A DNA stretch of 64,000 bases, from the NCBI GenBank assembly GCA_951812785.1, contig OX638335.1, positions 1,143,501 to 1,207,500 on the forward strand. The letters are read 5' to 3'. Position 1 is the first letter of the stretch, and each line of letters opens with the position of its first letter. The stretch comes from an uncultured Gammaproteobacteria bacterium (lineage in GTDB: Bacteria; Pseudomonadota; Gammaproteobacteria; UBA4575). Of the stretch, positions 9,489 to 17,671 are shown piece after piece. A program made the position numbers and the translations under genes. Under the pieces are notes generated by a model, which was given only the letters and a program-made list of their open reading frames with translations, did no database searches and was not told the origin of the DNA.

Positions 9489-10142
9489 TTAGGACACGTG
9501 CTCAGACAAACAGATAGACTTATGTTTTAATTTAATATGACCACTTAACTTTAACTCCTGAATTGCTCGACTAACAGATTCTCGCGAACTACCAAGTAGA
9601 TTTGCTAACTCTTTATGCGTTGCAGAACTAACCAAAGCATTATCATCAACTGAAGCATACGAACGCAGCACCCACATGACTCTTTGCTGAATATCTTCTA
9701 GTGTGACCGCTTCAAGATGCCTTGATAATACAGAAATTTGATCGGCACACTTTAATGCCATCGCATGCGGTATCTCTGGATGTTGACGATAAAAGCTCTC
9801 AAAATCCTTGGCTTGAATAACAAGCAATTTTGACTGCTGTTTGGTGATTACTGATGCACTTCTAGCATTTTTAGAAAACCATGCTAGCTCCCCAAATAAA
9901 TCTCCTTTCCCCAATTCATTTAAGGTCATCTCTCTTCCTCGGCCATTTTCTCGAAATACTCGGACAGCACCTTGTAGAATAAAATAGACAGATTGAGCTT
10001 CGTCACTCTCCAAGATAACAATAGTATTTTTACGAATTGATTTAATACTACTTTTAGATATAAGCGGTTCAAGATCTTTTTCAGAATAATGCCGAAGCAT
10101 TGGGATCTGTTGTAGCGTAGAAAAATTACTATTCATACTCAT
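9489..10142 (-). CDS. Crp/Fnr-family transcriptional regulator
   Basis: 217 residues: an N-terminal cyclic-nucleotide-binding-like beta-barrel (VYFILQGAVRVF, GDLFGELAWF) and a C-terminal Crp-type helix-turn-helix (HKELANLLGSSRESVSRAIQEL). The recognition helix motif SSRESVSR resembles Crp (SRETVGR). There is no N-terminal cysteine group, so it is not an oxygen-sensing FNR. In the barrel, the GELAWF stretch lacks the RSA(S/T) arginine in its standard place; RSASVIT follows close by, so nucleotide binding is possible. ATG 10142 overlaps the stop of the preceding gene (ATGA), indicating translational coupling. Confidence 0.88.
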   Translation of the reverse strand: MSMNSNFSTLQQIPMLRHYSEKDLEPLISKSSIKSIRKNTIVILESDEAQSVYFILQGAVRVFRENGRGREMTLNELGKGDLFGELAWFSKNARSASVITKQQSKLLVIQAKDFESFYRQHPEIPHAMALKCADQISVLSRHLEAVTLEDIQQRVMWVLRSYASVDDNALVSSATHKELANLLGSSRESVSRAIQELKLSGHIKLKHKSICLSEHVS

Positions 10143-13839: not shown

Positions 13840-14985
13840 TTATTTATTAATCTTACGGAATGGGCTCAACAATTCAGCAGTAGAAACCCCTACCGCTGAG
13901 ATGAAAGATCTTTCATCTAGCATGTGATACTGCACTTTCATAGTCAACGCACTGCCAAAGACAATCATGAGCAATGTAATGAATGAGCCTATCGCAAGTG
14001 TAGAAATACCTGTTACACCTTGACCGATTGTACATCCAAATGACAGCACTCCTCCAAACCCCATCATTACCGCACCAATCAGATGACCTACCATTTCAGA
14101 TGGATTACTAAACGTTTCTATTCTGAAGGTGCCTGAAATTATTGCATAAATGAATGAACCTAGAATCATCCCGAAAGTAACCGCAATGCCAAAATTAATG
14201 TGTGCGCCGGTAAAGGTCATTAAATAACTAATAGTATTTCCGGTAGGCCCAATAAAAGTTAATCCCTGCGGAGCAATAGGATCAAAGTCATCTTGACCGA
14301 TATATCCAGTAACAAACCAAGCGGCAACAACACACCCACCTATCACCAATCCAGCTAAAATATTATCAAAGCTGCTACGAAAATCTTCTTGCTTAAGCGC
14401 ATAGGCAATAAAACCAATTCCCACGATCAAAGCCACTATTGTCTGCAATGTAGTGCTATCTGCAATGCCTGTAAGCGAACTAATACCTTGCGGCAGACCT
14501 TGAGTCTGCATACCAACACTTTGTAAATCGACACTGGCTTTGTAGATATAGTTAATCCGTAATACCGCAAACAATCCACGTAGCGTCATATAAGCCGTGA
14601 CACCCAATACAATCACAACGACTAATGATTTGAGATTCCCGCCACCCACTCTGACTAAATTTCGTTGCCCACAACCAGCAGCCAGCGTCATACCAATACC
14701 AAATATGAATCCACCAAGTACATAACTGAGATATAAAAATTGAGTAGATAGATACATGGACTCACCGAGGCTAATAAAGCCCAAGACGCGCAACAGCTGC
14801 ACTCCGAGCACGGCGATACCTATACCGACAAACCAAGCGCCTAAACGCCCACGTGCACCCATATTGACGGCGTCACTGATAGCGCCCATGGTGCAAAAAT
14901 GTGTTTTATTACCCACAAAACCAAATACCAGGGCAATACAAAAGCCCAATATGGCAACGAAGTGAATGTTAGAAAGATCTTCCAT
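13840..14985 (-). CDS. YeeE/YedE-family sulfur-compound transporter
   Basis: 381-residue polytopic inner-membrane protein of the YeeE/YedE (DUF395) family, whose characterised members import thiosulfate. The conserved cysteine-bearing signatures are present: GNKTHFCTMGA near the N-terminus, AAGCGQRNLVR in the middle, and SFGCTIGQGVTG near the C-terminus, in an internally duplicated helix bundle. About ten hydrophobic stretches are visible. It is followed on the same strand by no close gene; upstream lie the methionine-rich proteins and DsrE2. Substrate (thiosulfate or another sulfane-sulfur compound) is inferred from family and context. Confidence 0.9.
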   Translation of the reverse strand: MEDLSNIHFVAILGFCIALVFGFVGNKTHFCTMGAISDAVNMGARGRLGAWFVGIGIAVLGVQLLRVLGFISLGESMYLSTQFLYLSYVLGGFIFGIGMTLAAGCGQRNLVRVGGGNLKSLVVVIVLGVTAYMTLRGLFAVLRINYIYKASVDLQSVGMQTQGLPQGISSLTGIADSTTLQTIVALIVGIGFIAYALKQEDFRSSFDNILAGLVIGGCVVAAWFVTGYIGQDDFDPIAPQGLTFIGPTGNTISYLMTFTGAHINFGIAVTFGMILGSFIYAIISGTFRIETFSNPSEMVGHLIGAVMMGFGGVLSFGCTIGQGVTGISTLAIGSFITLLMIVFGSALTMKVQYHMLDERSFISAVGVSTAELLSPFRKINK

Positions 14986-15146
14986 GAATATATCGCGAGT
15001 TATATGAAGGGCGCGATTATAACAGCACAGCGAAAAATTGGCATTCCGCTATGTAAAATATAGTTAAAAGATTAAAGATTGACGTCCTTGTCAAATGAAT
15101 CTTCCTTAAATCGTTCTAACCCTCTCTGTAATGCGGGGTAGTTTTG

Positions 15147-15797
15147 TTACTTGCTAACAGCCGGCTGTTGTTGAGCTGGCGCGAAAGACTTCATCATTTG
15201 ATTAAACCAGTCGGTGTACTGTTCGGGCTTCATCATTTGACCCATTGGATTGGCATTATGACCACCGCCCATCATGCTCATTGGGTTCATCATAGGTCCC
15301 ATCATTCCCATCATCATAGGATTCATCATGCCCATCATTGGGTTCATCATTCCCATCATCATAGGATTCATCATGCCCATCATTGGGTTCATCATTCCCA
15401 TCATCATAGGATTCATCATGCCCATCATTGGGTTCATCATTCCCATCATCATAGGATTCATCATGCCCATCATTGGGTTCATCCCCTGAAGCATTTGATG
15501 GGGTGACATTGCTTCACCCATTTTTTGCATTGGCTCCATCATTGGTCCAAAGTCTTTCGCATACCGAGCAAGATCATCACCTTCATGACATAACGCACAG
15601 TTTTCCATTGATGCTGCCTTAGCTGGGTCCATCATCATGGTCATCATTTGCATCCACACTTGTGGATCCATCGATTTTTGCATTGGATATGACATACCTT
15701 GCATACCCATCATTGCTGGCTTAGCTTCTTCCGCAGAAACGGTAGAGAACCCCAAAGTTGCTATTAGTGAAGCTAATAGTAATTTTCTAAATAACAT
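15147..15797 (-). CDS. Methionine-rich repeat protein with one c-type haem motif
   Basis: About 216 residues, exported. Start at ATG 15797 (MLFRKLLLASLIATLGF) with AGGAG five bases upstream; a longer frame begins at 15818. The signal peptide probably ends near VSAEEA. A region with many methionines follows, then one haem-binding motif ENCALCHEG (CxxCH). After it come four tandem 15-residue units built from MNPMMGMMNP and MMMGM, and a tail ending APAQQQPAVSK. I know of no described family with this layout. It could be a periplasmic monohaem protein with a flexible metal- or sulfur-binding arm. It lies next to a second methionine-rich protein and the sulfur transporter. Confidence 0.75.
   Translation of the reverse strand: MLFRKLLLASLIATLGFSTVSAEEAKPAMMGMQGMSYPMQKSMDPQVWMQMMTMMMDPAKAASMENCALCHEGDDLARYAKDFGPMMEPMQKMGEAMSPHQMLQGMNPMMGMMNPMMMGMMNPMMGMMNPMMMGMMNPMMGMMNPMMMGMMNPMMGMMNPMMMGMMGPMMNPMSMMGGGHNANPMGQMMKPEQYTDWFNQMMKSFAPAQQQPAVSK
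15304..15483 (-). repeat. 45-bp tandem repeat, four units (Met-rich coding)
   Basis: Four head-to-tail copies of a 45-base unit starting at 15304, 15349, 15394 and 15439, almost identical in sequence. Each encodes 15 residues of Met, Asn-Pro and Gly in the haem-motif protein. The near identity indicates recent expansion or ongoing homogenisation. Confidence 0.92.
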
Positions 15798-15840
15798 TAT
15801 GACTCCTAAAATTTTCAACCAAAAAAATAAAAACTATCTC

Positions 15841-17097
15841 CTATAAATCTCCGCTCGCTGCACCTTCCATAATGTAGCGAATATTTTCACGAATTCTTTT
15901 TGCATCGGCACGTAATTCTTTAGTGAGATGCGAATTAGGGTTTTGAGCATAGTCCAGCCAACTGACATCCCAATCTAGAGTGACTATCCAGATCTGACCA
16001 TCAGCGTCTTCCATTAAGGTGATTTTGCATGGTAAGAAAATAATAAATTCCGGCATGTAATCTAAAATTTTACGTGCTACCACTGCATCACAGAATCTAA
16101 AAATTTCTATTCTTGGTGATGGTGCATCGGTTAACGCTTCGATTTCTTTAGACAGAGGACTAGAACCAACAAATTTAAAATTCACTTCATTAGCACGCAG
16201 TTTCATAGAATCCACCGCATCATCCCATGTCACACCTTCTTCTAGAGGCAGTTTATGTGTCACCATACTAAGCATGTCACGCACTGATAACGGACTCATC
16301 ATCATCATGCTTTGAATAGCATTCTTCTTGGCTTCATCACTAATATCAGGTGACATAGTATTTATAGGATGATCACGGAAAGTTTGGGTTGGGAATCCTG
16401 GAATTTTTGCGATAGGAAGAACATTTGGCAAATCATCATCTTCACGCTTTTCGTAGGTTCCACCCATCATGGCAAGAATCATTTTAGGGTCCATATTACG
16501 CATTATGCTGTCGAGTGTCCCTGCATGAGTCATGGTATCGATACTAGGGTTCATCATCCCCATCATGGGATTCATCATCATAGCCGGATTCAGCATACCC
16601 GTCATGGGATTCATTATCATAGCCGGATTCATCATCCCCATCATGGAATTCATCATCATAGCCGGATTCATCATCCCCATCATGGAATTCATCATCATAG
16701 CCGGATTCATCATCCCCATCATGGAATTCATCATCATAGCCGGATTCATCATCCCCATCATGGGATTCATCATCATAGCCGGATTCATCATCCCCATCAT
16801 GGGATTCATCATCATAGCCGGATTCATCATCCCCATCATGGGATTCATCATCATAGCCGGATTCATCATCCCCATCATGGGATTCATCATCATAGCCGGA
16901 TTCATCATCCCCATCATGGGATTCATCATCATAGCCGGATTCATCATCATAGCCGGATTCATCATCCCATGGGCCGGTATGTTTGGCTGACCATTTGCTT
17001 GACTAGAGGCATTAGATTCGGTTTCTCCAAAAGCCATAGGGCTTGCGACGAGAAACGTCATTAACAACGCATAGATAAAACTCTGTTTACTTCTCAT
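15841..17097 (-). CDS. Methionine-rich repeat protein with C-terminal DUF302 domain
   Basis: 418 residues with a signal peptide (MRSKQSFIYALLMTFLVASPMAFG). Residues about 44-190 are some ten to eleven 13-residue units of the pattern MMNPAMMMNPMMG; some units carry NS or MT in place of NP. The C-terminal 200 residues resemble DUF302: LPLEEGVTWDDAVDSMK, then IEIFRFCDAVVARKILDY, FIIFLPCKITLMEDADGQ and WIVTLDWDVSW. DUF302 proteins are widespread and uncharacterised, and often neighbour sulfur or metal genes. The protein is probably periplasmic. It starts 43 bases before the haem-motif gene on the same strand, so the two are likely one operon. The exact link to the transporter and DsrE2 is inference. 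Confidence 0.8.
   Translation of the reverse strand: MRSKQSFIYALLMTFLVASPMAFGETESNASSQANGQPNIPAHGMMNPAMMMNPAMMMNPMMGMMNPAMMMNPMMGMMNPAMMMNPMMGMMNPAMMMNPMMGMMNPAMMMNPMMGMMNPAMMMNSMMGMMNPAMMMNSMMGMMNPAMMMNSMMGMMNPAMIMNPMTGMLNPAMMMNPMMGMMNPSIDTMTHAGTLDSIMRNMDPKMILAMMGGTYEKREDDDLPNVLPIAKIPGFPTQTFRDHPINTMSPDISDEAKKNAIQSMMMMSPLSVRDMLSMVTHKLPLEEGVTWDDAVDSMKLRANEVNFKFVGSSPLSKEIEALTDAPSPRIEIFRFCDAVVARKILDYMPEFIIFLPCKITLMEDADGQIWIVTLDWDVSWLDYAQNPNSHLTKELRADAKRIRENIRYIMEGAASGDL
16543..16968 (-). repeat. 39-bp tandem repeat, about eleven units (Met-rich coding)
   Basis: Copies of a 39-base unit recur exactly every 39 bases; the landmark agccggatt falls at 16582, 16621, 16660, 16699, 16738, 16777, 16816, 16855, 16894 and 16933. 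A shortened 18-base unit ends the array near 16951. Most units are identical; a few near the coding 3' end differ by one to three bases. It encodes the Met-rich arm of the DUF302 protein. Confidence 0.92.
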
Positions 17098-17188
17098 TCA
17101 GACTCCTCTGCCAATTTTAAGATATCAGCTAATTATTATGCCGCTGCACATACGGCTCTTTAACATATACCAGATACTAATATGGTTT

Positions 17189-17671
17189 TTACACGTATAA
17201 GGTGATATCTGCCTCGCCAGCAAACTCAAAGAATGTCGCCGCACCACCATATTCAACATCGTCAAGAAGATCGTCGTGTTCAAAATCAAATAGATCAACC
17301 GTCATCTGGCAAGCAACAAATTTAACTTCTGCCTCTAAACAAAGATCTCGTAGTTCTTCGATACTAGCAACACCTTTCTTTTTCATTTTAGCTTTCATCA
17401 TTGAAGACATTAGGGCTTCCATGCCTGGTAGCGTAGTACCCATCACAGGAAACCACTTATCCATACCCATAGGCATGGGCATTGCTGTGTTTCCTAGTGG
17501 AGTCACTTTAAGATTCACATCTTTGCGTAACAGAGCTAATCCATAAAAAGTAAAAAATATTTGCACTTCGTAATCGAGTGCAGCTGCAGTTGATGCAAGA
17601 ATAAATGGTGGGTAAGCCCAATCGAGGCTTCCTTTTGTAGCAATAATAGCTAGTTTTTTTCTATCCGACAT
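17189..17671 (-). CDS. DsrE/DsrF-like sulfur carrier (DsrE2 type)
   Basis: 160 residues of the DsrE/F family. The N-terminal strand KLAIIATKGSLDWAYPP, the loop PLGNTAMPMPMGMDKW, and the conserved cysteine in VKFVACQMTVDLF are typical of DsrE2 proteins, which carry sulfane sulfur in sulfur oxidisers, often with TusA and rhodanese. No TusA or rhodanese gene is adjacent here. It stands upstream of the Met-rich genes on the same strand with a 91-base gap. A role in receiving sulfur imported by the YeeE/YedE protein is inferred. Confidence 0.85.
   Translation of the reverse strand: MSDRKKLAIIATKGSLDWAYPPFILASTAAALDYEVQIFFTFYGLALLRKDVNLKVTPLGNTAMPMPMGMDKWFPVMGTTLPGMEALMSSMMKAKMKKKGVASIEELRDLCLEAEVKFVACQMTVDLFDFEHDDLLDDVEYGGAATFFEFAGEADITLYV

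Follow-up and report, generated by a model that had tools for sequence, protein, structure and literature searches.

A conserved YeeE-DsrE2 gene set with two secreted Met-repeat proteins as a candidate sulfane-sulfur import module in reverse-Dsr sulfur oxidisers

How sulfane sulfur from the periplasm gets to the oxidation enzymes of the cytoplasm is an open question, on which a group of four genes may bear whose products might act on both sides of the membrane. The window, that is, the whole stretch of 64,000 nucleotides that was analysed, spans positions 1143501-1207500 of a closed 2.16 Mb genome. Four consecutive ORFs occupy positions 13840-17671 of its minus strand (Table 1) and follow one another in transcription from dsrE2 through the Met-repeat/DUF302 gene and the Met-repeat CxxCH gene to the YeeE/YedE gene, with intergenic gaps of 91, 43 and 161 nt, respectively. 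The group is flanked by queC on one side and by a tRNA-Lys gene on the other, a placement that is also found in three congeners (L065, L082, L102). The first-pass annotation had described four same-strand genes of named families, and all of them are confirmed, each at the coordinates first given, by the ORFs, the matches to PF04143, PF03625 and NF047629, the single CxxCH and the Met arrays. We propose, with a probability of roughly six in ten, that these genes are the central part of a module for importing sulfane sulfur, which would link the oxidation of sulfide/thiosulfate in the periplasm to the reverse-Dsr pathway of the cytoplasm, a reading that draws on gene conservation, genomic context, conserved residues and the pathway inventory of the host.

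Table 1. Features of the four-gene locus (positions within the window)
Feature	Position	Strand	Evidence and remarks
dsrE2, cytoplasmic sulfur carrier, 160 aa	17189-17671	minus	NF047629, PF13686; relatives in the same place
Met-repeat/DUF302 protein, 418 aa, 22% Met	15841-17097	minus	PF03625; signal peptide-like N-terminus
39-nt tandem array, 13-aa Met repeat (MMNPAMMMNPMMG type)	16550-16948	minus	TRF; predicted disordered
DUF302 domain, residues 316-375	15973-16152	minus	PF03625
Met-repeat CxxCH protein, 216 aa, 31% Met	15147-15797	minus	signal peptide-like N-terminus, one CxxCH
24/45-nt tandem array, Met repeat of the CxxCH protein	15287-15483	minus	TRF
YeeE/YedE (Sulf_transp) transporter, 381 aa	13840-14985	minus	PF04143

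The four proteins and their repeat arms

The transporter matches PF04143 (Sulf_transp) with 208.5 bits against a cut-off of 27, and its channel cysteines Cys31, Cys105 and Cys318 are invariant (14/14), displaying the three-cysteine pattern of the long YeeE/SoxT form. The TsuA/YeeE thiosulfate importer belongs to the same transporter family, and the TsuA structures 6leo and 8j4c are PDB relatives of the protein (E 1e-15 to 1e-17). Assignment as TsuA itself was rejected, as the scores obtained with the NCBIfam equivalog/exception models are far below the cut-offs (105.8 versus 400 and 66.9 versus 645). The context of TsuA is assimilatory, that of the transporter described here oxidative. DsrE2 is recognised by NF047629 (SulfCarrDsrE2; 298.9 bits, cut-off 210) as well as by PF13686 (183 bits), and its catalytic-type Cys121 (17309-17311) is invariant in the 21 module or related DsrE2s (21/21).

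The DUF302 domain scores 36.5 bits with PF03625 (cut-off 23). It is modelled confidently by AF2, with most of its residues at a pLDDT near or above 90, and the fold matches the solved DUF302 structures 7tj1, 1j3m and 1q9u (Foldseek, E <=4e-7). Cys336 (16090-16092) and Cys357 (16027-16029) are invariant in all 34 aligned sequences, which points to thiol chemistry. A second DUF302 gene is found elsewhere in the same genome (C1:1885291-1885476, L001), as a 141-aa frame devoid of Met repeats and in an unrelated context. In the CxxCH protein the N-terminus is Sec-like and the CxxCH motif occurs a single time, at 15585-15599; it is invariant in 14/14 orthologues. Profile searches returned no match of this protein to any family, cytochrome families included, and its AF2 model (mean pLDDT 63) lacks the quality needed to assign a fold or a haem ligand; from the motif, it is a putative haem binder in which haem would be attached at CxxCH.

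Both secreted proteins bear Met-repeat arms encoded by genuine tandem DNA arrays, exact or near-exact, with 10.2 copies of a 39-nt unit in the DUF302 gene (97% match) and 4.1 copies of a 45-nt unit in the CxxCH gene (15300-15483; 100% match). The Met content of the two arms reaches 52% and 56%, against a median of 2.6% for the ORFs of the window. Across the 2.16 Mb genome a degenerate MNP-repeat pattern has 13 matches, all of them inside these two genes, and its reversed control has 0. The arm of the DUF302 protein is predicted to be disordered, as AF2 pLDDT falls below 50 across nearly all of residues 19-170. Long His- or Ile-rich ORFs on the plus strand opposite the arrays were discarded as mirror artefacts, since it is the minus strand that encodes the domains and has the homologues.

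Some periplasmic proteins are known to bind Cu(I) through Met-rich motifs, and a role in copper binding had already been suggested on first annotation. According to this explanation, the module would buffer periplasmic copper or another metal, with the arms binding Cu(I) and shielding the sulfur pathway. This is very improbable, given that the repeat units contain no His, that none of the module proteins matches a copper-resistance family, and that no copper gene or domain was identified in the annotated module neighbourhoods, which place the set in a sulfur context in every lineage.

Recurrence of the gene set in other genomes

The first-pass annotation had called for a genome-neighbourhood search on the premise that genes not conserved together in relatives would speak against a common function, and the set proved to recur. 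Searches for the module took the last 240 aa of the DUF302 protein as query. Relatives at 55-83% identity to this region are present in family members, and close relatives of the module type were found in 12 of the 19 family genomes (own genome included) and in G327. Further module-type DUF302s were retrieved from G517, from the more distant G624, from G103, which belongs to another class, and from the MAGs Bse_30 and Cca_20. Module-type DUF302s form a single clade (support 100/98) separate from other DUF302s, with G103 on a long branch. Altogether, the module is found in at least five family-level lineages, one of them from another class (family f1, G327, G517, the Bse30/Cca20 MAGs and G103), and this synteny in other families and in another class rules out chance neighbours.

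Linkage was counted over the 16 genomes or contigs that carry a module-type DUF302 and enough sequence, leaving out G624. The CxxCH protein is encoded beside the module-type DUF302 in 16/16, and YeeE lies within about 6 kb in all 14 cases in which the contig reaches that far. DsrE2 shares the contig in 16/16; the distance is no more than about 9 kb in 15 of them and 14.5 kb in G327. G624 is an exception that counts against the module reading, with two module-type DUF302 genes and no partners nearby. Across 55 relatives, DsrE2 is present in 13/13 module genomes versus 14/42 others, counts that are not corrected for shared ancestry. DUF302 was also missing from G305 and G315 and truncated in G316, which was traced to contig ends and does not represent true absence.

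The composition of the set is kept even where its genes are not the same. Two subtypes of DsrE2 exist, one of 160 aa (L105 4231-4713) and one of about 200-230 aa with an N-terminal extension (for example L066 5127-5732, 201 aa). They replace each other in the module across genera, the longer one occupying it in g156/g159 genomes, unlike in the window's genus, and both occurring in G328 and G348. That the kind of protein is kept though the DsrE2 gene differs argues for function and not inertia. The same argument can be made from G103, in which the Met-repeat stretch has a gene of its own between an armless CxxCH protein and an armless DUF302 protein, so that parts fused in one lineage are separate in another.

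Two additional variants of the Met-repeat genes were observed. A third Met-rich protein with MNPxxY repeats is encoded in the same genome (L119 1498-2082, C1 near 1094 kb) and is similar to the G103 repeat protein. This paralogue is present in 12/13 module genomes versus 1/42 others (the same 55 relatives, again not corrected for shared ancestry), and the sole non-module genome that has it is G315, whose contig ends at the module. In G301, of the same genus, a single Met-repeat ORF of 164 aa (L102 6727-7221) sits between DsrE2 and YeeE. It combines the N-terminus of the DUF302 protein with the C-terminus of the CxxCH protein, the DUF302 and CxxCH themselves being gone, and looks as if the two repeat arrays had recombined or the assembly had collapsed. 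Unless the assembly collapsed, DUF302 and CxxCH may be dispensable in G301, which counts against the import reading.

Sulfur-oxidation setting and rival explanations

In sister genera the module shares a single cluster with FccB (FCSD_central, 161 bits), dihaem FccA-like and NapC/NirT cytochromes, SoxY, SoxZ and a Tll0287-like haem protein. In the window's genus fccAB and soxYZ are not adjacent to the module, which counts against the import reading; in the host genome itself the partners are present but scattered, napC-fccA-fccB being located at 1131.8-1134.5 kb, some 9 kb ahead of the window, and soxYZ at around 610 kb. Targeted searches of the host genome identified dsrA (633 bits), SoxB (830 bits), two SoxY and FccAB, as well as a dsr operon matched by the TusC/DsrF, DsrH and DsrC models and weakly by DsrJ and DsrP, while no match to SoxC was obtained. 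As SoxCD is absent, periplasmic sulfane sulfur must be either stored or imported. On the other hand, family members without the module keep dsrA and FccB, so the module is not essential to rDsr sulfur oxidation. FadL/TodX-type outer-membrane porins are encoded beside the module in G517, G103 and Cca_20 (L074 3832-7164, L143 16078-17436 and L064 3-977), and possibly provide an entry route for hydrophobic sulfur.

Storage is at the centre of the main rival explanation, in which the Met-repeat proteins and their third paralogue would coat or nucleate periplasmic sulfur globules that YeeE and DsrE2 drain, the repeats being structural as in other sulfur globule proteins of repetitive sequence. The absence of SoxC together with the presence of DsrAB and FccB is the gene set of sulfur-globule formers, and it is that of the host; the proteins are secreted, of low complexity and variable in their repeats, and the distribution of the third paralogue fits as well. 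Known sulfur globule proteins, however, have Gly-rich repeats whereas the repeats here are Met-Asn-Pro, and the conservation of CxxCH and of the DUF302 domain hints at a chemical role that goes further than coating. Such a scaffold is unlikely, and it is partly compatible with an import module.

Outside the window's class, a DUF302-FccAB operon appears to be conserved. Both fccA and fccB are within 1.5 kb of DUF302 in 26 of 28 loci of a phylum sample covering 10 families (L005-L032; Pfam tally), with no YeeE or DsrE2 match within the same distance, while FccB is within 1.5 kb in 0/12 loci sampled from the window's own class. In addition, G324 encodes a dihaem cytochrome c fused to DUF302, with two cytochrome c domains (L055 1399-2514). 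It could accordingly be supposed that the CxxCH and DUF302 proteins aid electron transfer or cofactor assembly of FccAB and that YeeE and DsrE2 are merely co-regulated. We consider this improbable, since the DUF302/CxxCH pair accompanies YeeE and DsrE2 in five lineages even when fccAB is elsewhere, and the two invariant cysteines of DUF302 speak for thiol chemistry.

Finally, import could serve to inform a regulator instead of feeding oxidation, for which SoxT1B provides a precedent (PMC11582611). A Crp/Fnr-family regulator gene is found at 9489-10142, 3.7 kb downstream of YeeE, and a Crp-type gene precedes tusA-dsrE2 in G517. Against this stand the lack of a SoxR-type repressor beside the module, the presence of DsrE2/TusA, which point to a sulfur relay, and the fact that the Crp gene of the window is not kept beside the module in the relatives examined. 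A signalling role thus appears remote.

A possible import route and its known counterparts

Under the import reading, FccAB and also SoxYZ would release sulfur into the periplasm in zero-valent form or bound to protein, and the two secreted Met-repeat proteins would take it up or hold it there. Encoded beside the importer, these two are the best candidates to collect and present sulfur. The DUF302 protein would be the likely hand-over protein, acting via its two invariant cysteines, and the CxxCH protein a likely one-electron partner. Sulfur would then pass through the three-cysteine channel of YeeE to DsrE2, perhaps with TusA, as the cytoplasmic acceptor, and from there onward to DsrEFH, DsrC and DsrAB. 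As for the Met-Asn-Pro repeats, they are most likely hydrophobic, flexible extensions that serve to bind elemental sulfur or polysulfide, or else to keep the two proteins tethered together. A relay of sulfane sulfur across the membrane had been put forward from the outset; the module is conserved in reverse-Dsr sulfur oxidisers and import is its best reading, while the order of the transfers is still something that we infer.

A close parallel is found in Hyphomicrobium denitrificans, in which sulfur to be oxidised in the cytoplasm is delivered by the YeeE-type SoxT1A and the three cysteines of SoxT1B are essential (PMC11582611). Like SoxT1A and SoxT1B, the transporter described here is a YeeE-family protein of full length whose three cysteines are conserved and whose gene accompanies those of sulfur oxidation, and in both systems SoxYZ-bound sulfur is proposed to be passed to a cytoplasmic transferase. 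They differ in the proposed partners, as thioredoxin-like DsbA/SoxS proteins would present the sulfur in the SoxT1A/SoxT1B system and sHdr would be its sink, whereas here the presenters would be the Met-repeat DUF302 and CxxCH proteins, the acceptor DsrE2 and the sink reverse Dsr. A second parallel is the YTD cluster of disproportionators and cable bacteria, composed of YeeE/YedE, TusA and a DsrE of the DsrEFH type II (PMC13293266). As in YTD, YeeE is near a DsrE-family transferase, and TusA directly precedes DsrE2 in the module relatives G517 and Bse_30. No TusA is seen among the neighbouring genes in the window, where the YTD arrangement is consequently absent, a point that counts against the import reading, and the module has DsrE2 in place of DsrEFH type II plus the secreted Met-repeat, haem-motif and DUF302 proteins. 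Its hosts are SoxB/FccAB sulfur oxidisers, those of YTD mainly sulfate reducers.

DUF302 has also been encountered in related settings. DUF302 genes are part of sox clusters in Acidithiobacillia (PMC5037610), the order soxF-DUF302-YeeE has been reported from sox clusters of Sulfitobacter (PMC11034169), and a DUF302 gene has been noted that resembles one in the sqr plasmid operon of Synechocystis (PMC5061849). The Acidithiobacillia and Sulfitobacter clusters share with the module the linkage of DUF302 to sox/fcc-type genes and YeeE, but their gene order differs and neither Met-repeat arms nor a CxxCH Met-repeat partner has been reported from them. The set had been considered undescribed on first annotation, which is true in part. 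Its pieces and several pairings (YTD, SoxT1A, DUF302 in sox clusters, DUF302 with YeeE) are already described, whereas in the open-access papers searched, which are less than the whole literature, no description was found of the Met-repeat haem-motif/DUF302 proteins and their tie to the importer, nor of the DUF302-FccAB operon. The same search yielded no paper linking DUF302 or YeeE with DsrE2, and none on a Met-rich sulfur globule protein or on Met-rich periplasmic sulfur repeats.

The presenter of sulfur to YeeE-type importers has so far only been speculated on (PMC11582611). A bolder proposal, which we hold to be rather doubtful, is that the Met-Asn-Pro proteins are new periplasmic carriers of zero-valent sulfur, whose flexible arms would bind S8 or polysulfide for transfer to the YeeE channel by way of the DUF302 cysteines; if true, it would answer how sulfur reaches the YeeE/SoxT importers. 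Independently of this proposal, the uncharacterised DUF302 family is tied to flavocytochrome c sulfide dehydrogenase across ten sampled families of Proteobacteria, and the module names periplasmic candidates for the import of sulfane sulfur that have invariant cysteines and a haem motif and are encoded beside both the importer and the cytoplasmic acceptor.
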